A program made the translations under genes and the position numbers. This document shows, piece by piece, positions 42,038 to 53,440 of a stretch of DNA of 64,000 bases. Positions within the stretch are counted from its first letter, which is position 1. Every line of letters starts with the position of its first letter. Source of the DNA: Bacteroides sp. CAG:1060_57_27 (GTDB lineage: Bacteria > Bacteroidota > Bacteroidia > Bacteroidales > UBA932); assembly GCA_001915575.1 (NCBI GenBank), contig MNQT01000022.1, forward strand, positions 124,001 to 188,000, read 5' to 3'. The notes below the pieces were generated by a model. That model saw only the letters and a list, made by a program, of their open reading frames with translations. It had not been told where the DNA came from and did no database searches.

Positions 42038-44098
42038 TTAGTGTTTGATGATGAGCTTGTTGTTTTGGTTGTCAATCGTGATAGTCCCAAAACGCTCCAT
42101 CGCACTTTGTCCCAGGAGTAGCGGTGCCTTCTGGCTCTTCACTACCGAGGCGTCCACATTGTGGAGCACAGCATCTCCAATCTTCACCTCACGGAGCGTG
42201 ATGGTGGTGCCTTCGCTGATCTGGCCATTGGCAATCTGGTAGTACTTCTTGCCCTTGATGTCCTTCTCGGACAGGTAGCCGTTCTTGAACATAAAGTTGG
42301 CTTCCACGGAGGAGATGGTGACATCGGAGGCTCCGGTGTCAAAGATCATCTGGAGCGCCAGCCCGTTGATGTCGCAGGGAATCTCGAAGGTGCCACCCGG
42401 ATTGCGCTTGACGGCAATCTCGGTGACGGTTTCCTCCTTCTCAGGCATCGACAGCTTGAACTCCTTCAGGTATTCGGCGTGCTTGGCCTCGTATTCCTCC
42501 ATCAATGCTTTGAACTCGGGCAGTTCACGGACGGCATCCAAATCATCGTCGTGGCGTATGTGGGCGAAGCTGCGGTATCCCTTCTCGAAAGAGATGCGGA
42601 GAGCCGCTACGGATTCTTCCTGACGTCCCATTCGGGAATACAGGCACGCCTTATCGTAATAGTGGCCGGGATCATCAGGGTCAGACTCAATGATTTTGTT
42701 CATCCACTCCTCGGCCTCCTTGTCACGTCCCAAGAAATGCAGGGCATACTGCCGGCAACTTCCGTCTCTTACGACAGTATCCTTCTGGACTACCATCTCA
42801 AAATCCGCATCCGCCTCGGTCTTATTGCCCTCCAAAAGGAGCAGCTCGCCACGCATCAGATACAGGTACGGATAGTCCTGAGTCATCTCAAGGCCCATAT
42901 TATAGTCCTCCATGGCCTTCTTTCGCTCGCCTTGCATCTCATAGGTCCAGCCACGTCGATAGTAACAATAGGCCTCTTTCGGAGCATCCTCTACGGCAGC
43001 GGTGAAGTCAGCGATAGCCAAACCCAAATCACCGTTAAGCCGGTAGTAATCGCCACGGCGGACATACAGCTGCCAATCTGGGTCTTTTTCCATGGCCTTG
43101 GAAATGTCGGCGATGGCAAGTTCATTTAGCCCAAGTTCGCTGTAGCAATCCGATCTATATACATTGATCTCATCGTAGTGGCCGAATTCAGCCTCAAGAT
43201 CATCATAGGTCCTCACAGCCTCGGCATACTGATGTGAGGTCTCGTAGAACTGGCAGAGGAAGGCCATACACTGGAACCGCTTTTCAGTTTTCTTGATGCG
43301 AGTCTTGATGCTAGCCTCCGCATAGTTGGGGCGCTTAAGCAGAACCTTACCAATCGCTTCGGTGTTGGCATCATCATTCTTCTCGAACCATTCCAGGCCT
43401 GCGTCAACGGCTTTGGATGCCTCACCCAGTTTGTCGTAAGCCTGCATCTTGAAGCGGTAAATCTCCGAGTAGTCGGCATCGTACTTCTGGCACTTGTCCA
43501 GCATTTCAATGGCTTCCGAATACTGTTCGCGTTCAATCATATTCCGGGCAAGGCCGATCATAGCAGCCTGGTCAGCCTCGTCAAGAGCCAGCATCTTCCT
43601 GTAGATAGCATCAGCTCCGGCGTAATCTTCCAGGTCGTAGAGAGCCTGAGCATAGTCAAAAGATATGCTCTGCAGGTTCTCCTTATCGTCCTTCTGGGCC
43701 AGTTCATATGCCGTCTTGAAAGAGGCGGCTGCGTTAACCTTGTCCCCCATATCCTGGTAAATGTACGCCTTCCACCAATGCAGAGTGGAATTCTGCATCT
43801 CCGTCTTCTTGGGCTTGTTCACCTTCAGGGCATGGTTGATGTCCTGCAGTGCCTGGCCGAACTCCTTCTTCCGGCGAAGCAGCCGGACGCGCAAAAGTAG
43901 CGCCTCCACATTGTCCGGCGTCTCCCGGAGCTGCTTCGTCACAAGGTCAAGTGCCTTGGCCTCATCTTTCTCCTCTTGAAGGACCTCGTAGGCCTTCTTG
44001 AGGTTGTAATCGTTATCGGTCTTGTTCTTCTGGGCGTAAACATTGACACTCAGGGTGGTCAGCAGTACAACTGCCAGTAAGGAAAGGGTGTGTTTCAT
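42038..44098 (-). CDS. Exported TPR protein with retropepsin-like aspartic protease domain
   Basis: 686 residues from the ATG at 44098; the shared promoter at 44155 excludes longer starts. Signal peptide MKHTLSLLAVVLLTTLSVNVYAQ (cleaved near 22; shortened to MKHTLS...VYAQ). Residues ~30-550 are TPR repeats (YRKMLALDEADQAAMIGLARN, ADFTAAVEDAPKEAYCYYRRGW). The C-terminal ~110 residues are a retropepsin-like domain, with FDTGAS at about 586-591 (catalytic Asp587) and LLLGQSAMERFG. An exported TPR-protease may sense or trim an envelope partner. First gene of a six- or seven-gene leftward operon. Confidence 0.82.
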   Translation of the reverse strand: MKHTLSLLAVVLLTTLSVNVYAQKNKTDNDYNLKKAYEVLQEEKDEAKALDLVTKQLRETPDNVEALLLRVRLLRRKKEFGQALQDINHALKVNKPKKTEMQNSTLHWWKAYIYQDMGDKVNAAASFKTAYELAQKDDKENLQSISFDYAQALYDLEDYAGADAIYRKMLALDEADQAAMIGLARNMIEREQYSEAIEMLDKCQKYDADYSEIYRFKMQAYDKLGEASKAVDAGLEWFEKNDDANTEAIGKVLLKRPNYAEASIKTRIKKTEKRFQCMAFLCQFYETSHQYAEAVRTYDDLEAEFGHYDEINVYRSDCYSELGLNELAIADISKAMEKDPDWQLYVRRGDYYRLNGDLGLAIADFTAAVEDAPKEAYCYYRRGWTYEMQGERKKAMEDYNMGLEMTQDYPYLYLMRGELLLLEGNKTEADADFEMVVQKDTVVRDGSCRQYALHFLGRDKEAEEWMNKIIESDPDDPGHYYDKACLYSRMGRQEESVAALRISFEKGYRSFAHIRHDDDLDAVRELPEFKALMEEYEAKHAEYLKEFKLSMPEKEETVTEIAVKRNPGGTFEIPCDINGLALQMIFDTGASDVTISSVEANFMFKNGYLSEKDIKGKKYYQIANGQISEGTTITLREVKIGDAVLHNVDASVVKSQKAPLLLGQSAMERFGTITIDNQNNKLIIKH

Positions 44099-44154
44099 TG
44101 CGTGAAAGTTAAATGTTAATGATTGGTGTTTTCGTTTGTTCAAAAGCGCATAAT

Positions 44155-44182
44155 GAAATACTCTTTTCTTACATTTTCTTAC
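44155..44182 (-). promoter_or_regulatory. Cargo promoter (GTAAGA / GTAT) of the TPR-protease operon
   Basis: On the minus strand GTAAGA (44177-44182), 15 bases, then GTATTTC (44155-44161). The same pair, with 15-base spacing, precedes the sigma-factor gene and the gene at 50908. A second GTAAG sits inside the spacer. Confidence 0.7.
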
Positions 44183-44210
44183 GCCCATCATCCTCGTTTT
44201 CTATCATTTA

Positions 44211-44278: not shown

Positions 44279-45964
44279 ATGCCACTTTTAGTATACCAAC
44301 CCCGGAACTACGATCAGACACATGAACGTGAAGAGTTTAGGAACCTTTGCGTCCAGTTGAAGAACAGATACTATTCCTCGTCTGATGAAATGTGTATTTT
44401 GATAGGAAACTACAACATCGGGGATGTGGAGTTGGATGCCCTCATTATAAAAGATGATGGTATCGTCTTGGTGGAATTCAAGGATTATGGGGGGAATATC
44501 ATTGCGTCTGAGAATGGTGACTGGACATCAGAGGAAGGTGGACAATACAGCGTTATTCGTGGTGGCGCCGGACGGAAGAACCCTTATTCGCAGGCCAAGA
44601 TTAATCGTTCATCGTGCAAGCCGGTCCTGGTAGAAACCCAAGCCTTTGATCCTGGGCAGGTAGAAAGGATGGTTTCACTTATTGTCTTCCATCGCTCGGC
44701 CACAATTGATAATAGAATAAGTCCTCGTATCAAATGGCTAAGATTATGTGATGAGAGATCTTTCATTGACGAACTGGACTTGATTGTCTCCCCAGGATGC
44801 GATCTGCAGAAGGATGATTATAAACGAATTATCGAAAGGCTCGCTCTTAATAAAGGCTGGTTGTGTGTAAGATATTCAAATGTTGAAGTATTAGAAGAGG
44901 AAGACAATGATGTAGATTCTGTTGCGGATTCCATAAACGAGAATGAACAAAACAACAATACTCTGAATATGCCTACAAAACACGACTGGCAAGACTTTAA
45001 AAAAGTTCTGGACAAATATGGAATTACCAAGCTCTATCATTTTACCGATAGAGATAATTTGGAGTCCATTATTCAAAATGGTGGTCTTTATTCGTGGGTT
45101 GATTGCGACCAAAAGGGCATTTCCATCCCCAAACCGGGCGGTGGGGCACTTTCCCGCCAACTCGACTCCAGGGATAACCTTGGTTCGTATGTGCGTGTCA
45201 GTTTTACGCAGAACCATCCGATGATGTATGTGGCGATGAATGATGGCCGCATTTCAAATCCTGTCATTCTCGAGATTGACCCTAAGGTGATCTATGAAGA
45301 CGGTTCCTTGTTCTCGGATAGGAATGCGACCAAGAATGGAGCAAATATTGGCTCAACGTTTGAGGATTTTAACAAAATCCATTTCTCTTCCGTCAAAGCA
45401 TCGAGCCATTTTGATCTTGATGCCGATGAACAGGAGTTTTATCAGGCTGAAATACTTGTTAAGAACTTCATCCCCCTAAAATATATTACCAATATTGCCA
45501 ACTTTGGTATTCCTATTGGTCAGTCTGCGATTCAGCTCCAGGCAAAAGAGCCGTACACTGCGCAGATCTCTCGGAATAATCCCACTGCATTCATCTTCAT
45601 GGTTGATCATTCCTGTTCGATGGAGGCAATGACAACCCTTAATGGAGAGCGGATGACTTTGGCCGAAGCTGTAGCTCGCATCGTTAATAACCAGATTAAC
45701 GAATTGGTCCTTCGCTGTATTAAGACGAATGAGGTCCGGCATTATTACGACATCGCAGCCATTGGTTACGGCCACGATGTCTACAGTGCATGGAATGGCG
45801 AATTGAGCGGAAGGGATTTCGTGTCTCCCGAGGAATTGAAGGAGCATCCGTATAAAAAGATAATAACGAGGGAAGAGGTTAGAACAAGAAAAGGCACAAC
45901 CGTAAAGGAAATTGAGAAGGTTCAGTGGCTTGAAGCAAATACACAATTGGACTCATGTGCATAA
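44279..45964 (+). CDS. NERD / DarT-like ADP-ribosyltransferase / VWA protein (frameshifted before its end)
   Basis: 561 codons before a stop created by a frame change near 45947. (1) Residues ~15-130 form a NERD nuclease-related domain, with Asp53 in ELDALII and Glu66/Lys68 in VEFKDY. (2) Residues ~250-410 resemble DarT-type ADP-ribosyltransferases (DUF4433): KLYHFTDRDNLESII, YVRVSFT, LFSDRNA and the likely catalytic Glu391 in YQAEILV. (3) From ~436 a von Willebrand A domain starts, with MIDAS DHSCSM at 443-448; its second half is encoded from 45948 in the +1 frame. The PP2C gene follows 2 bases after the rejoined reading frame. The N-terminal two-thirds could function alone. Fusion of these three domains is unusual. 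Confidence 0.8.
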   Translation: MPLLVYQPRNYDQTHEREEFRNLCVQLKNRYYSSSDEMCILIGNYNIGDVELDALIIKDDGIVLVEFKDYGGNIIASENGDWTSEEGGQYSVIRGGAGRKNPYSQAKINRSSCKPVLVETQAFDPGQVERMVSLIVFHRSATIDNRISPRIKWLRLCDERSFIDELDLIVSPGCDLQKDDYKRIIERLALNKGWLCVRYSNVEVLEEEDNDVDSVADSINENEQNNNTLNMPTKHDWQDFKKVLDKYGITKLYHFTDRDNLESIIQNGGLYSWVDCDQKGISIPKPGGGALSRQLDSRDNLGSYVRVSFTQNHPMMYVAMNDGRISNPVILEIDPKVIYEDGSLFSDRNATKNGANIGSTFEDFNKIHFSSVKASSHFDLDADEQEFYQAEILVKNFIPLKYITNIANFGIPIGQSAIQLQAKEPYTAQISRNNPTAFIFMVDHSCSMEAMTTLNGERMTLAEAVARIVNNQINELVLRCIKTNEVRHYYDIAAIGYGHDVYSAWNGELSGRDFVSPEELKEHPYKKIITREEVRTRKGTTVKEIEKVQWLEANTQLDSCA

Positions 45965-46409
45965 AGCGTTCAAAAAAGCCATTCAATTGCTCGACTCCTG
46001 GATGATGACTCATCATGACCAGGATTGTTATCCTCCGACTATTATCAACATCACTGATGGCGAGTTTAATGGATGCCCTGCAGAGGAAGTCCAGCAACTG
46101 GCAAATGAGTTGAAGGCAATGCACACGAATGACGGCAATGTTCTGCTTTGGAACATTCATGTAACTGCAGGGCATACAGACAGCGTCATTCTCCCTGTTT
46201 CTTTGTCAGAGCTCCACGACAACACATATAGCAAGACGCTTTATTCGCTCTCCAGCCTTCTCCCTCTCCGGTATAACGACATGATTTCTAAGGTAAGGAA
46301 TGATGACAGCAGTGTCCGGCATACCGCAATGTCTGTCAATGCCGATATGTCAACATTGATACAGCTTATGGACATCGGAACTCCGACAAACATAAGCCTG
46401 AATAAATAA
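45948..46409 (+). pseudogene. Second half of the VWA domain, in the +1 frame
   Basis: The open frame from about 45948 (WTHVHKAFKKAIQLLDSWM) gives ~153 residues that continue the VWA domain: TIINITDGEFNG holds the late MIDAS Asp, then LLWNIHVTAGHT and LPLRYNDMISKVRN. It joins the preceding frame if one T of CAATTGG (45944-45950) is skipped. An ATG at 45912 opens the frame earlier but reads unlike the family. Three explanations are open: a true mutation, a base-call error, or +1 programmed frameshifting. Confidence 0.7.
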
Positions 46410-46410
46410 G

Positions 46411-47241
46411 ATGGCCAGAAATAGCTACTCCGTTTCAATCTCGAAGTTTGAGTCAAATGTCATTTGCGAAGATGCGGCGTCTTCGTCACCTCTTTGTGTT
46501 GTTGTGAGCGATGGTTCTGGCGGTGGTGGCGTATATGCTGAGAAGTGGTCGAAATACTTAGTAGAGTCTATCCCGTCAGACCCCATAAAGACTTTCGAAG
46601 ATCTTGACCGCTGGGTGGCAGGAATATGGGAGCCATATTACCTTTCATGTGAGAATCTCGCAAAACAAACAGATGGAATGACTCTCAGGAAGTTTTACGA
46701 GGAAGGCTCATTTGCGACCCTGGCTGCCGCATGGATAGAAGTTGACCATGCTTATTGGGCCTCATATGGTGACAGCGTGGTTTTTCACTATATCAAGGAT
46801 CAAGGCATTTTGGAATGGTCAACCATGAGGTTGACTGATTTCAAGGAGCCTCCTTATTTGATTGGGTGCTCAACACCGTTAAACATGAAAGGCTTTCATT
46901 CTGGTCAGTTTAATCTTGCACCATCATCAATCTTATTTGCCGCTTCAGACGCATTGGCGCATTATATTATCATGATGTTCGAATTGCTAAACCGCAGCTT
47001 ATTCGAGTCGGAAATCACCCAAGCTCTGAACGCCCATACGAGAGAATCGTCTTATATTAAAGCCGCTCAGAGCGAAAAAAGGAGATCGTTTGAGCCGGTT
47101 TTAGCCAAAATCGTTCGGAGCAGTAAGAATAGGGCAAATTTCTATAGACACCTTGATGCATTGTACAGACGTGGTCTTATAGCCAATGATGACTATTCTT
47201 TTGCTTATTGCATAGTAAACAATATCAAGTCAATTCATTAA
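46411..47241 (+). CDS. PP2C-family protein phosphatase
   Basis: 276 residues. PP2C-type metal-dependent Ser/Thr phosphatase. The motifs are ED in NVICEDAASSS, the metal-binding VVSDGSGGGG, GSFATLAAAWIEVDHAYWASYGDSVV, FAASDALAHYI and the final NDDYSFAYCIV; the first and third are abbreviated from longer conserved stretches. The spacing from the preceding frame is 2 bases. With the kinase encoded at 48607 it makes a kinase/phosphatase pair around the VWA protein, as in TerY-P systems. Confidence 0.88.
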   Translation: MARNSYSVSISKFESNVICEDAASSSPLCVVVSDGSGGGGVYAEKWSKYLVESIPSDPIKTFEDLDRWVAGIWEPYYLSCENLAKQTDGMTLRKFYEEGSFATLAAAWIEVDHAYWASYGDSVVFHYIKDQGILEWSTMRLTDFKEPPYLIGCSTPLNMKGFHSGQFNLAPSSILFAASDALAHYIIMMFELLNRSLFESEITQALNAHTRESSYIKAAQSEKRRSFEPVLAKIVRSSKNRANFYRHLDALYRRGLIANDDYSFAYCIVNNIKSIH

Positions 47242-47254
47242 CATCATTATTCTT

Positions 47255-47671
47255 ATGGTAAATAAGGCTTTGTGCACAGACTTTGCGGACATGATAGTCG
47301 CGCACTTCGATTACAAACTGGGGCTTGATACCTTCGTTACTACTGCACGAAATATCATTACTGCACTTGTTTTTGACAAGACCATTTCCGAAGCCGAAAT
47401 CCCTCTTACGGCTCGGTATATGCTTGAAAGAGTAGCCGAAGGCTTTGGTTTAGATAACAAACAGGTAGATGAAATTAGTTCTATTTTCCCCTCACTCTCG
47501 GTTGAATTTGACGCACACACCATAGGCCCTATCATTTCATCTGTTAATGCTGGTTGTTGCGTTGGGCCCAATGGTGAAATTGATTATTCAAAGATGACTG
47601 CCGAGAATATGTTGAAGAACGGATATGAACTTGTGGCGCTTACTCTCATGCGAGAAAGCGGTCAGCTTTAG
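47255..47671 (+). CDS. Small helical protein, first of a tandem pair
   Basis: 138 residues, no signal peptide or membrane helix. Clearly paralogous to the following gene: both start MV(N/D)K(A/S)LC.DFAD..., share FDKTISE(A/S)EIP, a GFGL segment and a C-terminal GPDG or GPNG...NGY(E/K)L motif. I recognise no known family. 13 bases after the PP2C gene, so the same operon. Confidence 0.65.
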   Translation: MVNKALCTDFADMIVAHFDYKLGLDTFVTTARNIITALVFDKTISEAEIPLTARYMLERVAEGFGLDNKQVDEISSIFPSLSVEFDAHTIGPIISSVNAGCCVGPNGEIDYSKMTAENMLKNGYELVALTLMRESGQL

Positions 47672-47706
47672 TTATCACGAAATAATAAAATATAGGTTAT
47701 TGTATT

Positions 47707-48123
47707 ATGGTAGACAAAAGTTTATGCGTTGATTTCGCAGATGCAATCTTAGCCCACTATCAGTTTAAACTGGGCTTTGACACTTTCATTACCGCCGCAA
47801 GAAATGTCATCACATGCCTTGTGTTCGACAAAACTATCTCGGAGTCTGAGATACCAATTGCGGCGAAGTATATGCTTGAAGAGGTTGCTTCCGGCTTTGG
47901 CCTTCAACCGTCACAGGTTTCAGATATGAGCGCAAAATTCCCCAAGCTTGCTGTAGAATTTGACAATAGTACAACAGGCAAGATTATTCAGGCGGTAAAT
48001 GCTCGTAGATACATGATTGGACCTGACGGTCAGTTAGACCCGACCAAATTAACGGCAGACAACGTCATGAGGAATGGATACAAACTGATTGCAATGCAAC
48101 TAATGCAAAAAGGCAAAAAGTAG
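47707..48123 (+). CDS. Small helical protein, second of a tandem pair
   Basis: 138 residues, roughly half identical to the preceding protein by eye (for example FDTFITAARNVITCLVFDKT against FVTTARNIITALVFDKT). Ends in a basic tail (MQKGKK). Probably arose by duplication and has since diverged, especially in the last third. Unknown function; the paired arrangement suggests a heterodimer or substrate pair for the kinase and phosphatase. Followed by a shared hairpin terminator. Confidence 0.65.
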   Translation: MVDKSLCVDFADAILAHYQFKLGFDTFITAARNVITCLVFDKTISESEIPIAAKYMLEEVASGFGLQPSQVSDMSAKFPKLAVEFDNSTTGKIIQAVNARRYMIGPDGQLDPTKLTADNVMRNGYKLIAMQLMQKGKK

Positions 48124-48143
48124 AATCCATATGGAGAAAAAGA

Positions 48144-48181
48144 AGTGGGCTGGTAAGGACCTTGATCCATACCAGCCCACT
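48144..48181. terminator. Bidirectional hairpin terminator between convergent cargo operons
   Basis: Perfect 12-bp stem (48144-48155 with 48170-48181). A T-rich run (TTCTTTTTCT) follows on the minus strand, so it mainly ends the leftward kinase operon; it may also stop the rightward operon. Confidence 0.8.
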
Positions 48182-48195
48182 CTGTAATGAATAGC

Positions 48196-48597
48196 TTATA
48201 AATTCATTAAATCATTTCGCTCGTCGGTAGATAAATTGAAATTGTAGTATTTCTTGAGAACCTTCCCATTCCGAGAAATATACAAGTCAATTTTCAGTGA
48301 AGATAAATTGACGACGAAAGCATAATCCACATCATAAACAGAATCGTACGAAAAGAAATAAGCTTCCTTGCCAATTTGAAGGTAAGGAGAGAGTGATTTA
48401 TCCAGAATCTTACCAACAACGTGTTTTCTTACATTGTATTTATACGAAGGCGGGAAGTCTCCTTCGTAAGGAATTCCGGAAATGTTCAGGACGCTTGAAC
48501 TGTCTACAATAAAAAGCATGTCGATCGGCTCTTCATCTTGGCCAGACACTTGGGCTAATCCCTGAGCCCGAATCTGTAACATTACATTTAAGTCCAT
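48196..48597 (-). CDS. Beta-rich small protein, unknown function
   Basis: 133 residues, no signal peptide. Mostly alternating strands (YAFVVNLSSLKIDLYISRNG, IDMLFIVDSSSVLNISG). It follows the kinase gene by 9 bases, so it may be a kinase partner or target. I recognise no domain. Confidence 0.6.
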   Translation of the reverse strand: MDLNVMLQIRAQGLAQVSGQDEEPIDMLFIVDSSSVLNISGIPYEGDFPPSYKYNVRKHVVGKILDKSLSPYLQIGKEAYFFSYDSVYDVDYAFVVNLSSLKIDLYISRNGKVLKKYYNFNLSTDERNDLMNL

Positions 48598-48606
48598 ATG
48601 AAATAG

Positions 48607-50097
48607 TTATTGGTTTAATTCAATAGTCTTCTCAAAACCGGATTGGAAGTCACGTATAAGTACTTTCCTAATGCCCACCCAGAATAACTTATTAAGGAAA
48701 CGTGCGTCTGCTGAGATTACTGAAATGAAGTTCCCGATTAAAACCCCGTCAGAGGACGGCTGTAGGGAAAGGATTAGTGTATTCCCAAGCGCCATAAAGG
48801 AAACGCTATCTTCAATAGAAGGATAATGTTGACGGCACCATAAACGAGCCAACTGAGGAGATAAGTCAGGGCGATCCACGCTGTGCTGTGACTTTCCGCT
48901 TATAATCTCGAGTTTATTTGATAAGCTATCATCCAGAATATTAACGTTGACTAAAAGGCGCCTGATATGGATTCCGGAGAACTTCTCAATAGCGGTCTTT
49001 TTGCCATCTGTAGCGGTCATAAAATAACTGTTGTCGTTCCATGCAATCCTCACTTTTAGCTCATCCCTAAAGATCTCAATATCATTATTGTCTATACACA
49101 TTCCGACAATGTAGTCTTTATGGGCTATGTTCCAGAGCACGTCAGAGATGAAAACCCGGGACATACCCGTACCGGAACATATCGTTCTTGTCGTAAATGC
49201 ATTGATATATGAGGAAGAACTGTAGTCAAGTTGTCCTGCAAGTAGAACTGAAAGGAAGTTTGAATAAATCTCCTGGAATTCTTCATCTGTAACCAGCGAG
49301 CCCATTTTTTGAAAAACTGAGCAACTGGATATATCCATATAGTCTTTCTTTGAGAAAAGAAGGACGTCTCCTCCATCATAATCATTAATAAGTTCTGGCA
49401 TCAATGCCATTGCTTTCAGAGAAAGCAAAATGACGGAGAGAGAGAAATCATCAATATGACGATCAAAATCCTTGATGGTCCTTCGAGGATGCTGATAACC
49501 TGGTGTCCCAACCTCTCGAGACTCTTCACCTTCCATGCCAGGAACGAACATTCCATCGTAATCCACTAAGGAGAATACACCATTCTTCTTGACAATGATA
49601 TTATCAGGTTTTATGTCTCCGTGAGCAAAGGGTTGAGCAAGAAGCCAACGTCCCAAATCCTTGAAAGTGGAGATAATCCGATTCAGAGCATCGTGATTAT
49701 CTTGATTCTCAATCACATACTGGCCAAGTGTACTCCCCTCAATCCAGTCCATTTTCACTACAGGGAACTCTGTTTCATGGGTAACAGAAGAGTCAACAAA
49801 CAACTCCTCCTCCAAATATTCTACCTTAGCCATATAAGGCGCATTCACATTCGCGAGTGTTGAAGCTATGCTCTTATATCCTTCTTGCCGACCGTCCTGA
49901 TCCCGCGTAAAGCATTTAATGGCAAAGATCTCTCCTGTGTTGATGTCTTCCATCTTGAAAACCACAGCAAAGTTTCCGCTACTGAAAAGCGGCTTCCCAT
50001 CGAATCCAAGAATTGGCCTGAGAGATGTCAGTGTCGCGAAGTTGTCTTCTGCCGAGCTGACGGCATTCATATATTCAGATATGAGGGGGTATGCCAT
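48607..50097 (-). CDS. Serine/threonine protein kinase, TerY-P-like
   Basis: 496 residues. The kinase domain (about 30-310) has a Gly loop SSGNFAVVFK (residues 39-48), Lys61 in AIKCF, the catalytic loop HGDIKPDN (159-166, catalytic Asp161), DYDG at 179-182 and GTPGYQHP in the activation segment. The C-terminal ~180 residues hold beta-rich repeats (VRIAWNDNSYFMTATDGKK, ISGIHIRRLLVNVN and similar), perhaps a scaffold for the VWA protein. No membrane segment. With the PP2C and VWA genes it completes a TerY-P-type triad. Convergent with the PP2C operon. Confidence 0.88.
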   Translation of the reverse strand: MAYPLISEYMNAVSSAEDNFATLTSLRPILGFDGKPLFSSGNFAVVFKMEDINTGEIFAIKCFTRDQDGRQEGYKSIASTLANVNAPYMAKVEYLEEELFVDSSVTHETEFPVVKMDWIEGSTLGQYVIENQDNHDALNRIISTFKDLGRWLLAQPFAHGDIKPDNIIVKKNGVFSLVDYDGMFVPGMEGEESREVGTPGYQHPRRTIKDFDRHIDDFSLSVILLSLKAMALMPELINDYDGGDVLLFSKKDYMDISSCSVFQKMGSLVTDEEFQEIYSNFLSVLLAGQLDYSSSSYINAFTTRTICSGTGMSRVFISDVLWNIAHKDYIVGMCIDNNDIEIFRDELKVRIAWNDNSYFMTATDGKKTAIEKFSGIHIRRLLVNVNILDDSLSNKLEIISGKSQHSVDRPDLSPQLARLWCRQHYPSIEDSVSFMALGNTLILSLQPSSDGVLIGNFISVISADARFLNKLFWVGIRKVLIRDFQSGFEKTIELNQ

Positions 50098-50142: not shown

Positions 50143-50736
50143 TTAAAAGTCAAATGATAGTTGCCCTTCTGGTTCTCGTGGCCGTTCCATAGTAGGATAA
50201 TCATCTTCAATATAGAATTTGATTAAACTGGCATGGGAGACAGGCTTTTTCTCGTTGAAACAATCAGAATTCGTATCGTAATCAAGGAGAACAACGTTCT
50301 TTTCCTTAGAAAGAAACCTTATCTCATCAATCAAGGCACCCGCTTTGTTCTGGAGAACCCAAAGATAAGAAGGTAGATATATCTGAAAACGAGCATCAAG
50401 ATAACCTAACAACTCAGTGCCTGAAACCCCTTTCCTATGGCCAAGAGGCATGCCAAAACGTCTAACCGTCCGCTTGATGTTTCTCATCGTCGCATTGCTA
50501 AAGCATGACAAGTCAACGTCTGACTTTTGAAACACCTTCAAGCCCTGCCATATTCCCTCGACAGACATAGAAGCATATCCAGGCGAGAAAGGAACCGGTA
50601 TCCCGCCATGGGGGTAAAAGGGGCTCAGCTGAACGAAACGGCTATTTGACGTGCTTGTCACGTCAATGATCAAAGCGCCAGGGTACTTCCGTTCAATGGA
50701 AGTAACCTTCTTTCGTTTTGATTCTATATAGATCAT
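50143..50736 (-). CDS. Conserved protein of unknown function, kinase neighbour
   Basis: 197 residues. Marked features are IERKYPGALIIDVTS, LSPFYPHGGIPVPFSPG, SVEGIWQGLKVF and a C-terminal acidic end. I recall proteins with the SPFYP...GIPVP...SVEGIWQGLKVF pattern as a conserved Bacteroidota and Proteobacteria family (possibly DUF6939), but cannot confirm this. It lies 45 bases upstream of the kinase gene and is probably co-transcribed with it. Confidence 0.55.
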   Translation of the reverse strand: MIYIESKRKKVTSIERKYPGALIIDVTSTSNSRFVQLSPFYPHGGIPVPFSPGYASMSVEGIWQGLKVFQKSDVDLSCFSNATMRNIKRTVRRFGMPLGHRKGVSGTELLGYLDARFQIYLPSYLWVLQNKAGALIDEIRFLSKEKNVVLLDYDTNSDCFNEKKPVSHASLIKFYIEDDYPTMERPREPEGQLSFDF

Positions 50737-51239: not shown

Positions 51240-51926
51240 TCAGTAAAGGCTCTTTACATATCGGAGGATTTTCTGGCGGAGTCGCGACTTGCATGTGTCG
51301 ATGTTGCCACCGGTCTTGTGCGTTATCTCCATCATCTGCTCCTTCGACAAGCCATCCTTCATCATTTCCAGCAAAAGTTTGTCGCTCTCGTTAAGGGTTG
51401 AAAGAAAACCGGTGAGTTGTATCAGCCGGCTCTCAGATTCAGAACGCTCTTCTACCTTCAGGAATGGCTCCACGATAGAAGTATCTTCTAAATCCATCCC
51501 CTCTATGACGTCAAACCGTGTTTTGGTTGTAATTACCTTTTTCAACTTCTTCGATTCGCTGATCGTGTAATTCCTTGCCACAACACATACCCAGGTCTTA
51601 AATGGAGTACCATGGTCCGGATCATAGGAAGCACTCCGATTCAGGATGTGTAAGTTTGCACTCTGAATGAAGTCATCCACATCTATATATCCTTTCTGCA
51701 CCCAGGAGCTGGCGTTTTTCATTAACGTAAACCGCACAGTGTCAGATATTGACTGAATAACATCATTATTGAACAGTGACAGGTTTTTGCCAATTGATGA
51801 ATTGCTTGAAGATGATAAGTTCCTGGATATGGTGCGTGAAAGATTTAGGAGTTGATAGATAACGACAGGTGAAGCTGTCGTCCGCCAAAAGAAAAGTCGG
51901 TTTAGCGTAACTCCATCTGTCCGCAA
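51240..51926 (-). CDS. RNA polymerase sigma factor, sigma-70 family, island-encoded
   Basis: 228 residues. Region 2 shows YIDVDDFIQSANLHILNRSASYDPDHGTPFKTWVCVVARNYTIS, of which DVDDFIQ and FKTWVCVVARN are the key parts. Region 4 shows LLLEMMKDGLSKEQMMEITHKTGGNIDTCKSRLRQKI (core GLSKEQM...CKSRLRQ). The two-region build fits an ECF or short sigma-70 factor. No anti-sigma gene is obvious nearby. Its own promoter (51978-52005) and three other cargo promoters share GTAAGA/GTAT boxes, so autoregulation is likely. Confidence 0.88.
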   Translation of the reverse strand: MRTDGVTLNRLFFWRTTASPVVIYQLLNLSRTISRNLSSSSNSSIGKNLSLFNNDVIQSISDTVRFTLMKNASSWVQKGYIDVDDFIQSANLHILNRSASYDPDHGTPFKTWVCVVARNYTISESKKLKKVITTKTRFDVIEGMDLEDTSIVEPFLKVEERSESESRLIQLTGFLSTLNESDKLLLEMMKDGLSKEQMMEITHKTGGNIDTCKSRLRQKILRYVKSLY

Positions 51927-52014: not shown

Positions 52015-53440
52015 TTAAAAATCAGCCGAGCCTAAGCGGCTCTGGCAGTAAATAAAATGAGTTCCTTGAAAATTTTGTCAATTAATGTCGTGTCCGGTTT
52101 AATGCCGAACACGCAAATAAATCGTTCAAGCATATAGGCATTGTGTATCATCGACTTGCAAGATGAGATGGAATACGGTATTCCCTTCCTTTTGCATGCG
52201 GCCTTTGCGATATTGATTGCAGTAAGCGATGCGTTGAAGTGGAACGCCAGCTTCCTGAAGTCGGTGGACTGGCAGTTCGTGATCCCCGCGTACTGCTTGC
52301 TGTCCCTGAAGCAGAACTCCAGCTGGAATCGTGTCCTGTAATATTCCAGGACATCAAATGTCGATTGGTTTTGGTCTGTCGAGAAGTAGAGCTGCCATTT
52401 GTCAGTCCTGTCTTCATCGGGATACCACACCGCGAGGCTCACCATACGTTTCAGGGCCTTTGACCAGGCCTTCAGTCCATACAGCTTCCCTTTGTCGACT
52501 TCATGCTCCGTACATCTGGAGGTGTCAAGCCGCGAGAAGTCTATGGCCCCGTCATATTTTGGGGGACGTCCTCTCCTCCTGGTCGGTTTTTCCGCCGTGG
52601 GATAGAACAGCACTGCATCGTTCCTGAACCTGCTGATGATATGGAATCCGTTGTCACACATCGGCGTGATGAATGTGCTCTTTGAAATGAACGCATCTGC
52701 CACGACAATGTTGGATATACGGTGTATTTGTTCTCGCCTGCTTACAAGATAACCGGCATACCAGTCAACCAAGCTCTTGTCTATGTTGTCCAGGGTTTTG
52801 GTGTCGGGACTTTGAACTGAGCCTAAAGTCATGCACTCACGGTTGTCTACATCTATGACTCCGATTCCCATGATTTCAAGTCCCCGTTTGTATTCTCCGG
52901 AACAACCTGACCAGAAATATCCCAGCCATGGGGTTTTCTTTCCGGACTTGGGAATATAGGAAGGATCCACGGCAATGGCTTTTCTTGTACCCGGCAGATG
53001 CTCTTTGACAAGGTGCTCATTGAATGAGAACCAGTCGAATGATTCGTTCACGAAATGGTTGCGGTACGTCTGTTCGGAGAACTTTCCTTACCGTCCCATC
53101 TGAAGGAAGTTTATGCGGCCGGGGATGGCCATGAACAACTTCATCGCATCCATAAAGACTTTTTCAAACGGTTTTCCTATATTTGCCACTGATTTGAGGG
53201 CCTCAAGGCACTCGGATTGGTATTGCATAAGGATCGATTCTCTAGTCATAATCAGAAGGGGTGAGTTACTTCTAATTTACTAATAATCAACGAATTATGC
53301 AATACTTTTCTTAAATGTTTTCCGGCTTTTTATCGCACTCCAAAACACTGAATTACTGCTGCTTGTAGATTCATCTGTTGACAATATTTCAATGAACTTT
53401 TATAGGGTTTGAGCCGGCCTTATCCGACTCGATTGTTAAA
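52015..53440. mobile_element. IS4-type insertion sequence (approximate ends)
   Basis: Contains one transposase gene reading left. The ends carry imperfect inverted repeats: left AATCAGCCGAGCC...CGGCTC (from about 52019) and the complement of right GAGCCGG...GACTCGATT (to about 53437). No clear target duplication was found. The coordinates are good to about ten bases. Confidence 0.6.
52032..53249 (-). pseudogene. IS4-family DDE transposase with premature stop
   Basis: The coding frame from the ATG at 53249 would give about 405 residues, but an in-frame TAA at 53088-53090 interrupts it after LQMGR, where Tyr is likely expected. After the stop the frame stays open (GKFSEQTYRNHFVNESFDW) to 52032, giving a 339-residue ORF from ~53051. 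DDE features include AIAVDPSYIPKSGK, VVADAFISK and the YREK-like FQLEFCFRDSKQ. The catalytic core is intact but the N-terminal binding region is cut off, so transposition is unlikely unless the stop is read through. Confidence 0.8.

Follow-up and report, generated by a model that had tools for sequence, protein, structure and literature searches.

DarT/NADAR pairs and TerY-P triads are already known, and antiphage precedents have been reported for systems of both kinds. An antiphage activity of stand-alone, TerY-P-like modules having an STK-OB kinase was reported by Gao 2020 (cited in an excerpt of PMC11090510), and a further precedent is given by DarTG (excerpt of PMC11543638). KKP (excerpt of PMC11341870), made of two kinases and a phosphatase, is a toxin-antitoxin system that defends against phages and in which the kinase/phosphatase balance can serve as the switch. 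Here we analyze a stretch of 64,000 nucleotides, hereafter the window, from Bacteroides sp. CAG:1060_57_27 (GCA_001915575.1, contig MNQT01000022.1, positions 124,001 to 188,000 of the forward strand), which carries a gene for a NERD-DarT-VWA fusion in one island with a PP2C phosphatase, a Ser/Thr kinase and a DUF6939 protein (PF22075). We consider it moderately probable that this island belongs to a phosphorylation-gated, toxin-antitoxin-like DarT/NADAR cassette, where a kinase/PP2C switch would control a DarT joined to a TerY-type VWA, and that this cassette is probably antiphage. The cassette would unite TerY-P phospho-signalling with DarT/NADAR DNA ADP-ribosylation, both of them known antiphage parts, in one protein and one cluster.

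The cassette shares with DarTG1 a DarT-family ADP-ribosyltransferase (ART) near a protein that is predicted to adopt the NADAR fold and has comparable catalytic residues, and the DarT1 structure 8baq is its nearest solved chain by sequence profile. It differs from DarTG1 by the fusion of its DarT to a VWA, and in the window also to a NERD domain, by its additional kinase or kinases and PP2C, by an antitoxin candidate from a divergent family that stays under the NADAR-DarT1 gathering score, and by a DarT fold that is better matched by DarT2. It has the ART fold of DarT in common with DarTG2, where DarT2 goes with the macrodomain protein DarG, but no DarG profile match was obtained and its DarT branches away from the DarG-linked ones. 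TerY VWA, PP2C and Ser/Thr kinase in one island are as in the TerY-P triad and the STK-OB module; unlike there, the TerY of the cassette is joined to an enzymatic toxin domain, the OB region of the model is left unmatched by the C-terminal part of the window kinase and the kinases of many relatives bear repeats. KKP resembles the cassette by its kinase/phosphatase balance, its mobility and its antiphage toxin-antitoxin logic, but the excerpt of PMC11341870 names neither DarT or another ART nor VWA or NADAR. Finally, residues 1-191 of the fusion align with the N-terminus of the PADLOC candidate PDC-M16A (2.1e-30), whereas the remainder of this 917-position model is unmatched by the fusion. Our literature search returned no case of DUF4433/DarT joined with TerY or VWA, an earlier mention in the original TerY-P papers being possible; it found no paper on DUF6939, and neither the DUF6939 assignment proposed below nor the repeat-bearing kinase array was found described. 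If the proposal is true, TerY-P would gain a concrete enzymatic effector, PF22075, a Pfam family of unknown function, would gain a testable enzyme activity, and the kinases would form an array whose repeat domains, as their variety suggests, sense the threat.

A DarT domain fused to a TerY-type VWA

An earlier note, written from the sequence alone, had recognized in the island a VWA protein, a PP2C phosphatase and a Ser/Thr kinase arranged as in the TerY-P triad, the VWA protein carrying an N-terminal NERD domain and a central DarT-like ART. All these parts were recovered by profile searches. The first frame of the effector gene (44279..45964, +), read here as 561 amino acids, was delimited with Pfam, PADLOC and an intact relative, P0001. 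Its NERD domain (about 44381-44683, +) matches PF08378 at 2.5e-9, with 38.1 bits for a cut-off of 22.1, and D53, E66 and K68 can be read from the sequence. The DarT domain (about 45035-45577, +) matches PF14487 at 6.1e-41, with 140.8 bits for a gathering score of 22.5, and contains the ART glutamate E391 (codon 45449-45451, +) singled out by the earlier note. The first part of the TerY-type VWA begins at about 45551 (+; PADLOC TerY 9.1e-20), no VWA match being found by Pfam in the window proteins. It is followed by the PP2C-type phosphatase of the triad (46411..47241, +; PADLOC PP2C 5.9e-9), for which Pfam gave no PP2C match in the window at E up to 1. On the minus strand lie the TerY-P-type (STK_OB) Ser/Thr kinase (48607..50097, -; Pkinase 2e-12; STK_OB 3e-52 over amino acids 1-284), and, 45 bp before the kinase gene, the gene for DUF6939 (50143..50736, -), which is NADAR-like and the candidate antitoxin.

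The 561-residue chain is in fact the product of a frameshifted copy. The frame stops inside the VWA, the rest of which is found beyond the frameshift in another frame (45912..46409, +; PADLOC TerY 1.2e-27). When P0001 (712 amino acids, 31 member sequences) was compared with the window by tblastn, its residues 1-556 aligned in one frame at 44279-45943 and its residues 559-712 in another at 45945-46406 (99.8% and 99.4% for the two window frames). Since P0001 aligns across both frames, an intact copy of the effector exists, on which the PADLOC TerY match reaches 1.6e-51. In 34 aligned sequences, the VWA residues D444, S446, S448 and D596 are invariant, as are H255-F-T, N350 and E392 of the P0001 DarT domain, E392 being the counterpart of the window E391.

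The NERD domain is real, although the idea that it defines the system did not survive the comparison with relatives. Of the 7999 sequences scored in our homolog search, 2006 reached E up to 0.001; NERD is present in three of the 120 listed, the other 117 measuring 479-503 amino acids with DarT as their sole precomputed Pfam domain. Homologs of this length that we inspected possess the VWA too. In the 73 related loci presented below, the window NERD was not matched at E up to 0.001. In the structure model, the predicted local distance difference test score (pLDDT) is below 50 over residues 1-231 and three sequences only cover this region; the NERD part of the model was set aside. In the window variant, NERD may contribute DNA binding or cleavage.

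The DarT assignment is also supported by structure prediction. A structural match to DarT had been called for, and Foldseek found it with the model of P0001 (7omy 5.4e-9; 8baq 1.1e-5). The NCBIfam equivalog toxin_DarT scores 60.6 bits on P0001, below its cut-off of 150. When a profile of the DarT-VWA family was compared with solved chains, the best match was DarT1 from E. coli C7 (8baq, 1.8e-9), followed by DarTG 7omu (9.1e-5) and Thermus DarT2 7omv (0.0032). In a tree of 37 domains, the DarT-VWA branch stands apart from seven DarG-linked DarTs and 7omv with a support of 100/98, the C7 branch being very long. At the base-contact position (N104 in DarT1, H119 in DarT2) the DarT-VWA family has N, and at the position of Y71 of DarT2 it has S, as has DarT1 (S63); other residues stand there, as we aligned them, in the NADAR-linked DarTs from plasmids. 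E. coli C7 DarT1 was absent among the 50 VIA entries listed.

Conservation of the cassette

A scan of genome contigs yielded 73 related loci, mainly from Bacteroidales; one of them (L063) is without a DarT match, which leaves 72 for the counts. The conserved order is kinase(s)-DUF6939-DarT-VWA-PP2C, with a DarT-VWA that lacks NERD. In 62/72 loci the DUF6939 gene precedes DarT at a distance of at most 400 bp, and 66 have it somewhere in the locus; the two open frames are most often 4 bp apart. PP2C is found at most 400 bp downstream of DarT in 67/72, a kinase in 44 of the 46 loci having at least 4 kb upstream, and an in-frame C-terminal VWA piece in 71/73. Together with the homology, these counts uphold the link between the DarT effector and the kinase/phosphatase triad. 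Co-occurrence in other genomes, by which the earlier note wished its gene set to be judged, thus holds for DarT-VWA with PP2C and kinase but does not extend to NERD. Among the six loci devoid of DUF6939, three (L029, L045 and L047) start within 200 bp of a contig end. A different arrangement is seen in L068/L084 (L084:1-4131, Chlorobiota-labelled; L068 is one of the 72), where DarT and a PP2C-like region form one protein and a separate VWA gene and DUF6939 lie alongside.

The cassette occurs widely, yet its presence is patchy. Among 247 Bacteroidales genomes drawn, DarT of any kind was matched in 18, and DarT-VWA was identified only in loci already known, those of G002 and G008. Among plasmids, a 6.6-kb stretch remained unmatched by megablast, and a protein search gave 16 records, none of which reached 80% query coverage. 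The guanine-plus-cytosine (GC) content is 0.41-0.43 at 44-52 kb of the window versus 0.53-0.62 at 1-36 kb, and the open reading frame (ORF) at 52032-53051, near the island, is presumably transposase-like. The cassette is probably mobile.

Two further DarT architectures were noticed: DarT follows TPR repeats in L085 (5936-7429, -) and an N-terminal region of unknown nature in L086 (4257-5942). Neither stretch gave a match to DUF6939, NADAR-DarT1 or DarG, L086 stopping at a contig end.

DUF6939 as a candidate antitoxin

The earlier note had seen no DarG-like macrodomain antitoxin. This absence stands, since a profile built from two DarG proteins found no match in the window or in the 73 loci, but a candidate of another fold is present in DUF6939, a family with 6965 homologs at E up to 0.001. 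Its structure is predicted with a pLDDT of 94, and the sole fold match in the PDB at E up to 0.001 is NADAR, the antitoxin of DarT1 (8bat). Residues E60, K67, K88 and D152 are invariant, comparable catalytic residues being present in 79/79 aligned rows. The E60-K67 spacing is that of E88-K95 in the NADAR of E. coli C7, and K88 and D152 match the order and approximate spacing of its K115 and D171 (residue numbers taken from PMC11543638). The Pfam NADAR-DarT1 model matches 23 of 56 DUF6939 members at E up to 1 (best 4.7e-5); it gives 9.9e-6 and 25.6 bits with the DUF6939 of P. distasonis and 13.6 bits with that of the window. As these scores fall below the gathering score of 27, DUF6939 cannot be filed by sequence as a NADAR-DarT1 member. 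It is the predicted fold, the motif spacing and the gene context, taken together, that led us to accept the NADAR assignment, and DUF6939 would then be a NADAR-like putative eraser of ADP-ribose and antitoxin for DarT. In the BFVD, the DUF6939 model has six matches at E up to 0.001, all of them uncharacterised giant-virus proteins.

DUF6939 accompanies DarT and not the kinase module alone. In L074, a 12.5-kb stretch of a P. distasonis plasmid, and in L083, 9.4 kb of a Bacteroidales genome, a DarT with another N-terminus adjoins DUF6939, and a further DarT/DUF6939 pair occurs in L108 (3.5 kb examined); VWA, PP2C and kinase were not matched in any of these stretches. DUF6939 was detected in 5/247 Bacteroidales genomes and in 4/395 genomes of a phylum-wide draw, that is in eight distinct genomes, G002 being in both. 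Three of these (G002, G008 and G080) were already among the loci. DarT lies beside DUF6939 in two of the remaining five (G229 and G626), and in G223 DUF6939 is fused to a canonical NADAR domain.

DUF6939 also occurs in other contexts, some of them with further ADP-ribose genes. DUF6939 and canonical NADAR (PF08719) share one 418-amino-acid frame in L082:4317-5570 (-), with no DarT. In L105 (G346, 3.5 kb), also with no DarT, DUF6939 is beside genes for canonical NADAR, an ADP-ribosylglycohydrolase and a metallophosphatase (Pfam). L106 (G568, 3.5 kb) has a SIR2 gene in the stretch (Pfam) and no DarT, its NADAR and phosphatase genes being judged by like sequence only. On a Prevotella plasmid, DUF6939 is near ADP-ribosylglycohydrolase and NUDIX genes. 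Relatives were also met in 30 phage records (27 from Erwinia/Dickeya and three uncultured; one phage is 462 kb long) as weak tblastn matches; the two that were scanned and aligned (L080:2977-3609 and L081:2950-3543) are over the Pfam DUF6939 cut-off and keep E60, K67 and D152. A role of the phage proteins in counter-defence is possible. On a Bartonella plasmid (L079:1-4549), DUF6939 is the second gene behind one with RHS repeats, a position that would suit an immunity gene.

Kinases of the cassette

The window kinase possesses H159-G160-D161, K163, N166 and D179-Y-D-G, all invariant in 65 aligned kinases, namely that of the window and the 64 of 78 from the loci that score above 300 bits. All 65 match Pkinase; LRR_5 is present in 37, Sel1 in 15, WG repeats in 7 and TPR families in a few, the window kinase itself having no LRR, Sel1, WG or TPR repeat. 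STK_OB is matched over model positions 1-279 of 562, and Pfam assigns no family to the C-terminal part of the kinase. Of the 40 loci that extend 7 kb or more upstream, 20 have one kinase, 13 have two, five have three and two have none. To judge from sequence, variable repeats on a fixed kinase suggest a sensing function.

Proposed working and alternative explanations

What was computed here is the domain content, the folds predicted for DarT, VWA and DUF6939, and the linkage and residues that are conserved; from these we infer phosphorylation gating, an antitoxin, a target base, a trigger and a defence role along the following lines. At rest, VWA-DarT would be kept inactive by its phosphorylation state and by partners of the VWA, and stray ADP-ribose on DNA bases would be removed by DUF6939 acting as a NADAR-fold hydrolase. 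A trigger, most likely infection, would shift the kinase/phosphatase balance and release DarT, which would ADP-ribosylate DNA, perhaps guanine in single strands, and thereby stop the replication of both phage and cell. We read this as phage defence because of the antiphage precedents of the TerY-P-like STK-OB modules and of DarTG and because of the composition of the island. A broader and more tentative proposal, plausible to us without being quite probable, is that of a modular immune circuit of Bacteroidales, in which sensor kinases with interchangeable LRR, Sel1, WG or TPR repeats would read invasion cues and feed a single DarT-on-TerY-VWA effector, whose DNA ADP-ribosylation would be gated by phosphorylation and erased by the NADAR subfamily DUF6939. 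The phage DUF6939 proteins would then be counter-defence and the window a NERD-armed variant.

Several observations weigh against the DarT/NADAR cassette as we propose it. Regarding the antitoxin, profile-profile comparison by hhalign of DUF6939 with seven NADAR-DarT1 proteins gave a probability of 24% (E 8e-4, 73 columns; 0.5% for the control, DUF6939 against DarT), a profile of the same seven matches one of the 73 loci, at 9.5e-4, and searches of the PDB with DUF6939, by one sequence or by profile, returned no NADAR. DUF6939 is without DarT, in the stretch examined, in three of the eight sampled genomes, and L051, L064 and L067 are without DUF6939 in theirs. In the window, DUF6939 and the toxin sit in separate convergent gene sets. 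Over 62 loci, the distances of DUF6939 correlate at 0.62 with those of PP2C and at 0.44 with those of DarT; as the PP2C figure is the higher, this correlation does not single out DarT. Regarding the toxin, a grouping of the tree with DarT2 is not rejected (p-AU, from the approximately unbiased test, 0.204), the model of P0001 is nearer by Foldseek to Thermus DarT2 than to DarT1, and the NADAR-linked DarTs from plasmids have other residues in place of N350 in our own alignment. Guanine as the target base is for these reasons, fold and tree, a guess towards which we lean and not a result. Finally, phage records gave no DarT-VWA match, and none was confirmed in viral contigs, where 17 stretches matched a pattern.

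One could assume that DUF6939 is a general ADP-ribose-processing enzyme and not the direct antitoxin, the toxin being restrained by the VWA and the kinase/phosphatase pair only. The occurrence of DUF6939 without DarT in L105, L106, the Prevotella plasmid and large phages would fit with this, as would distances that follow PP2C more than DarT. We nevertheless hold it to be rather unlikely, given the position of DUF6939 just upstream of DarT in most loci and its adjacency to DarT where VWA, PP2C and kinase were not found. One would also wonder whether the cassette serves stress or growth regulation and not phage defence, a reversible, TerY-P-switched ADP-ribosylation of the cell's own DNA tuning replication or transcription. 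Indeed, TerY-P triads are tied to tellurite resistance, with a proposed role in metal sensing (Anantharaman 2012, as cited in an excerpt of PMC11090510), and reversible DNA ADP-ribosylation is reported to coordinate growth in M. tuberculosis (excerpt of PMC12170906). On the other hand, the low-GC island beside a presumed transposase-like ORF, the patchy presence illustrated by DUF6939 in 5/247 Bacteroidales genomes and the antiphage reports on TerY-P-like STK-OB modules render this improbable in our eyes. That toxicity would reside in the kinase, as in KKP, with DarT as an accessory, is suggested by the two or three kinases of 18/40 loci, but the excerpt on KKP names no ART or VWA, and here the key residues of DarT are kept in all aligned sequences next to a NADAR-like neighbour; we regard this as very unlikely.

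The window copy raises a question of its own. Its effector gene being broken, the assembled strain may be left with no more than the regulators and the antitoxin candidate. Whether the effector is dead by frameshift, the island being a remnant of antitoxin and regulators, or the frameshift is an assembly error, such an account of this copy appears evenly balanced to us: the two frames belong to one protein of which a nearly identical intact form is known, but the PP2C, kinase and DUF6939 frames are still open in the window.

Other features of the island

The two convergent gene sets consist, on the plus strand, of NERD-DarT-VWA, PP2C and a pair of 138-amino-acid proteins and, on the minus strand, of DUF6939, the kinase and a 133-amino-acid protein. 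The pair (47255..47671 and 47707..48123, both +) was judged by eye to be paralogous, and the second member is a near-orphan with two relatives only in a protein search. The 133-amino-acid protein (48196..48597, -) is an ORF located 9 bp downstream of the kinase gene. None of the three has a significant family match in Pfam, PADLOC, NCBIfam or PHROGs, nor a match in the 73 related loci at E up to 0.001. Scans for promoters (24 versus a mean of 18.1, standard deviation 4.1) and terminators (5 versus 5.8) in the window were near chance. Upstream of the DUF6939-kinase set lies a gene for a sigma-70-like factor (51240-51926, -; Pfam region 2, 7e-8), with no match in the 73 loci. On the other side, divergent from the effector gene, a TPR protein of 717 amino acids, which ends in a gag-type aspartyl protease domain at its C-terminus, is encoded at 42038-44191 (-).

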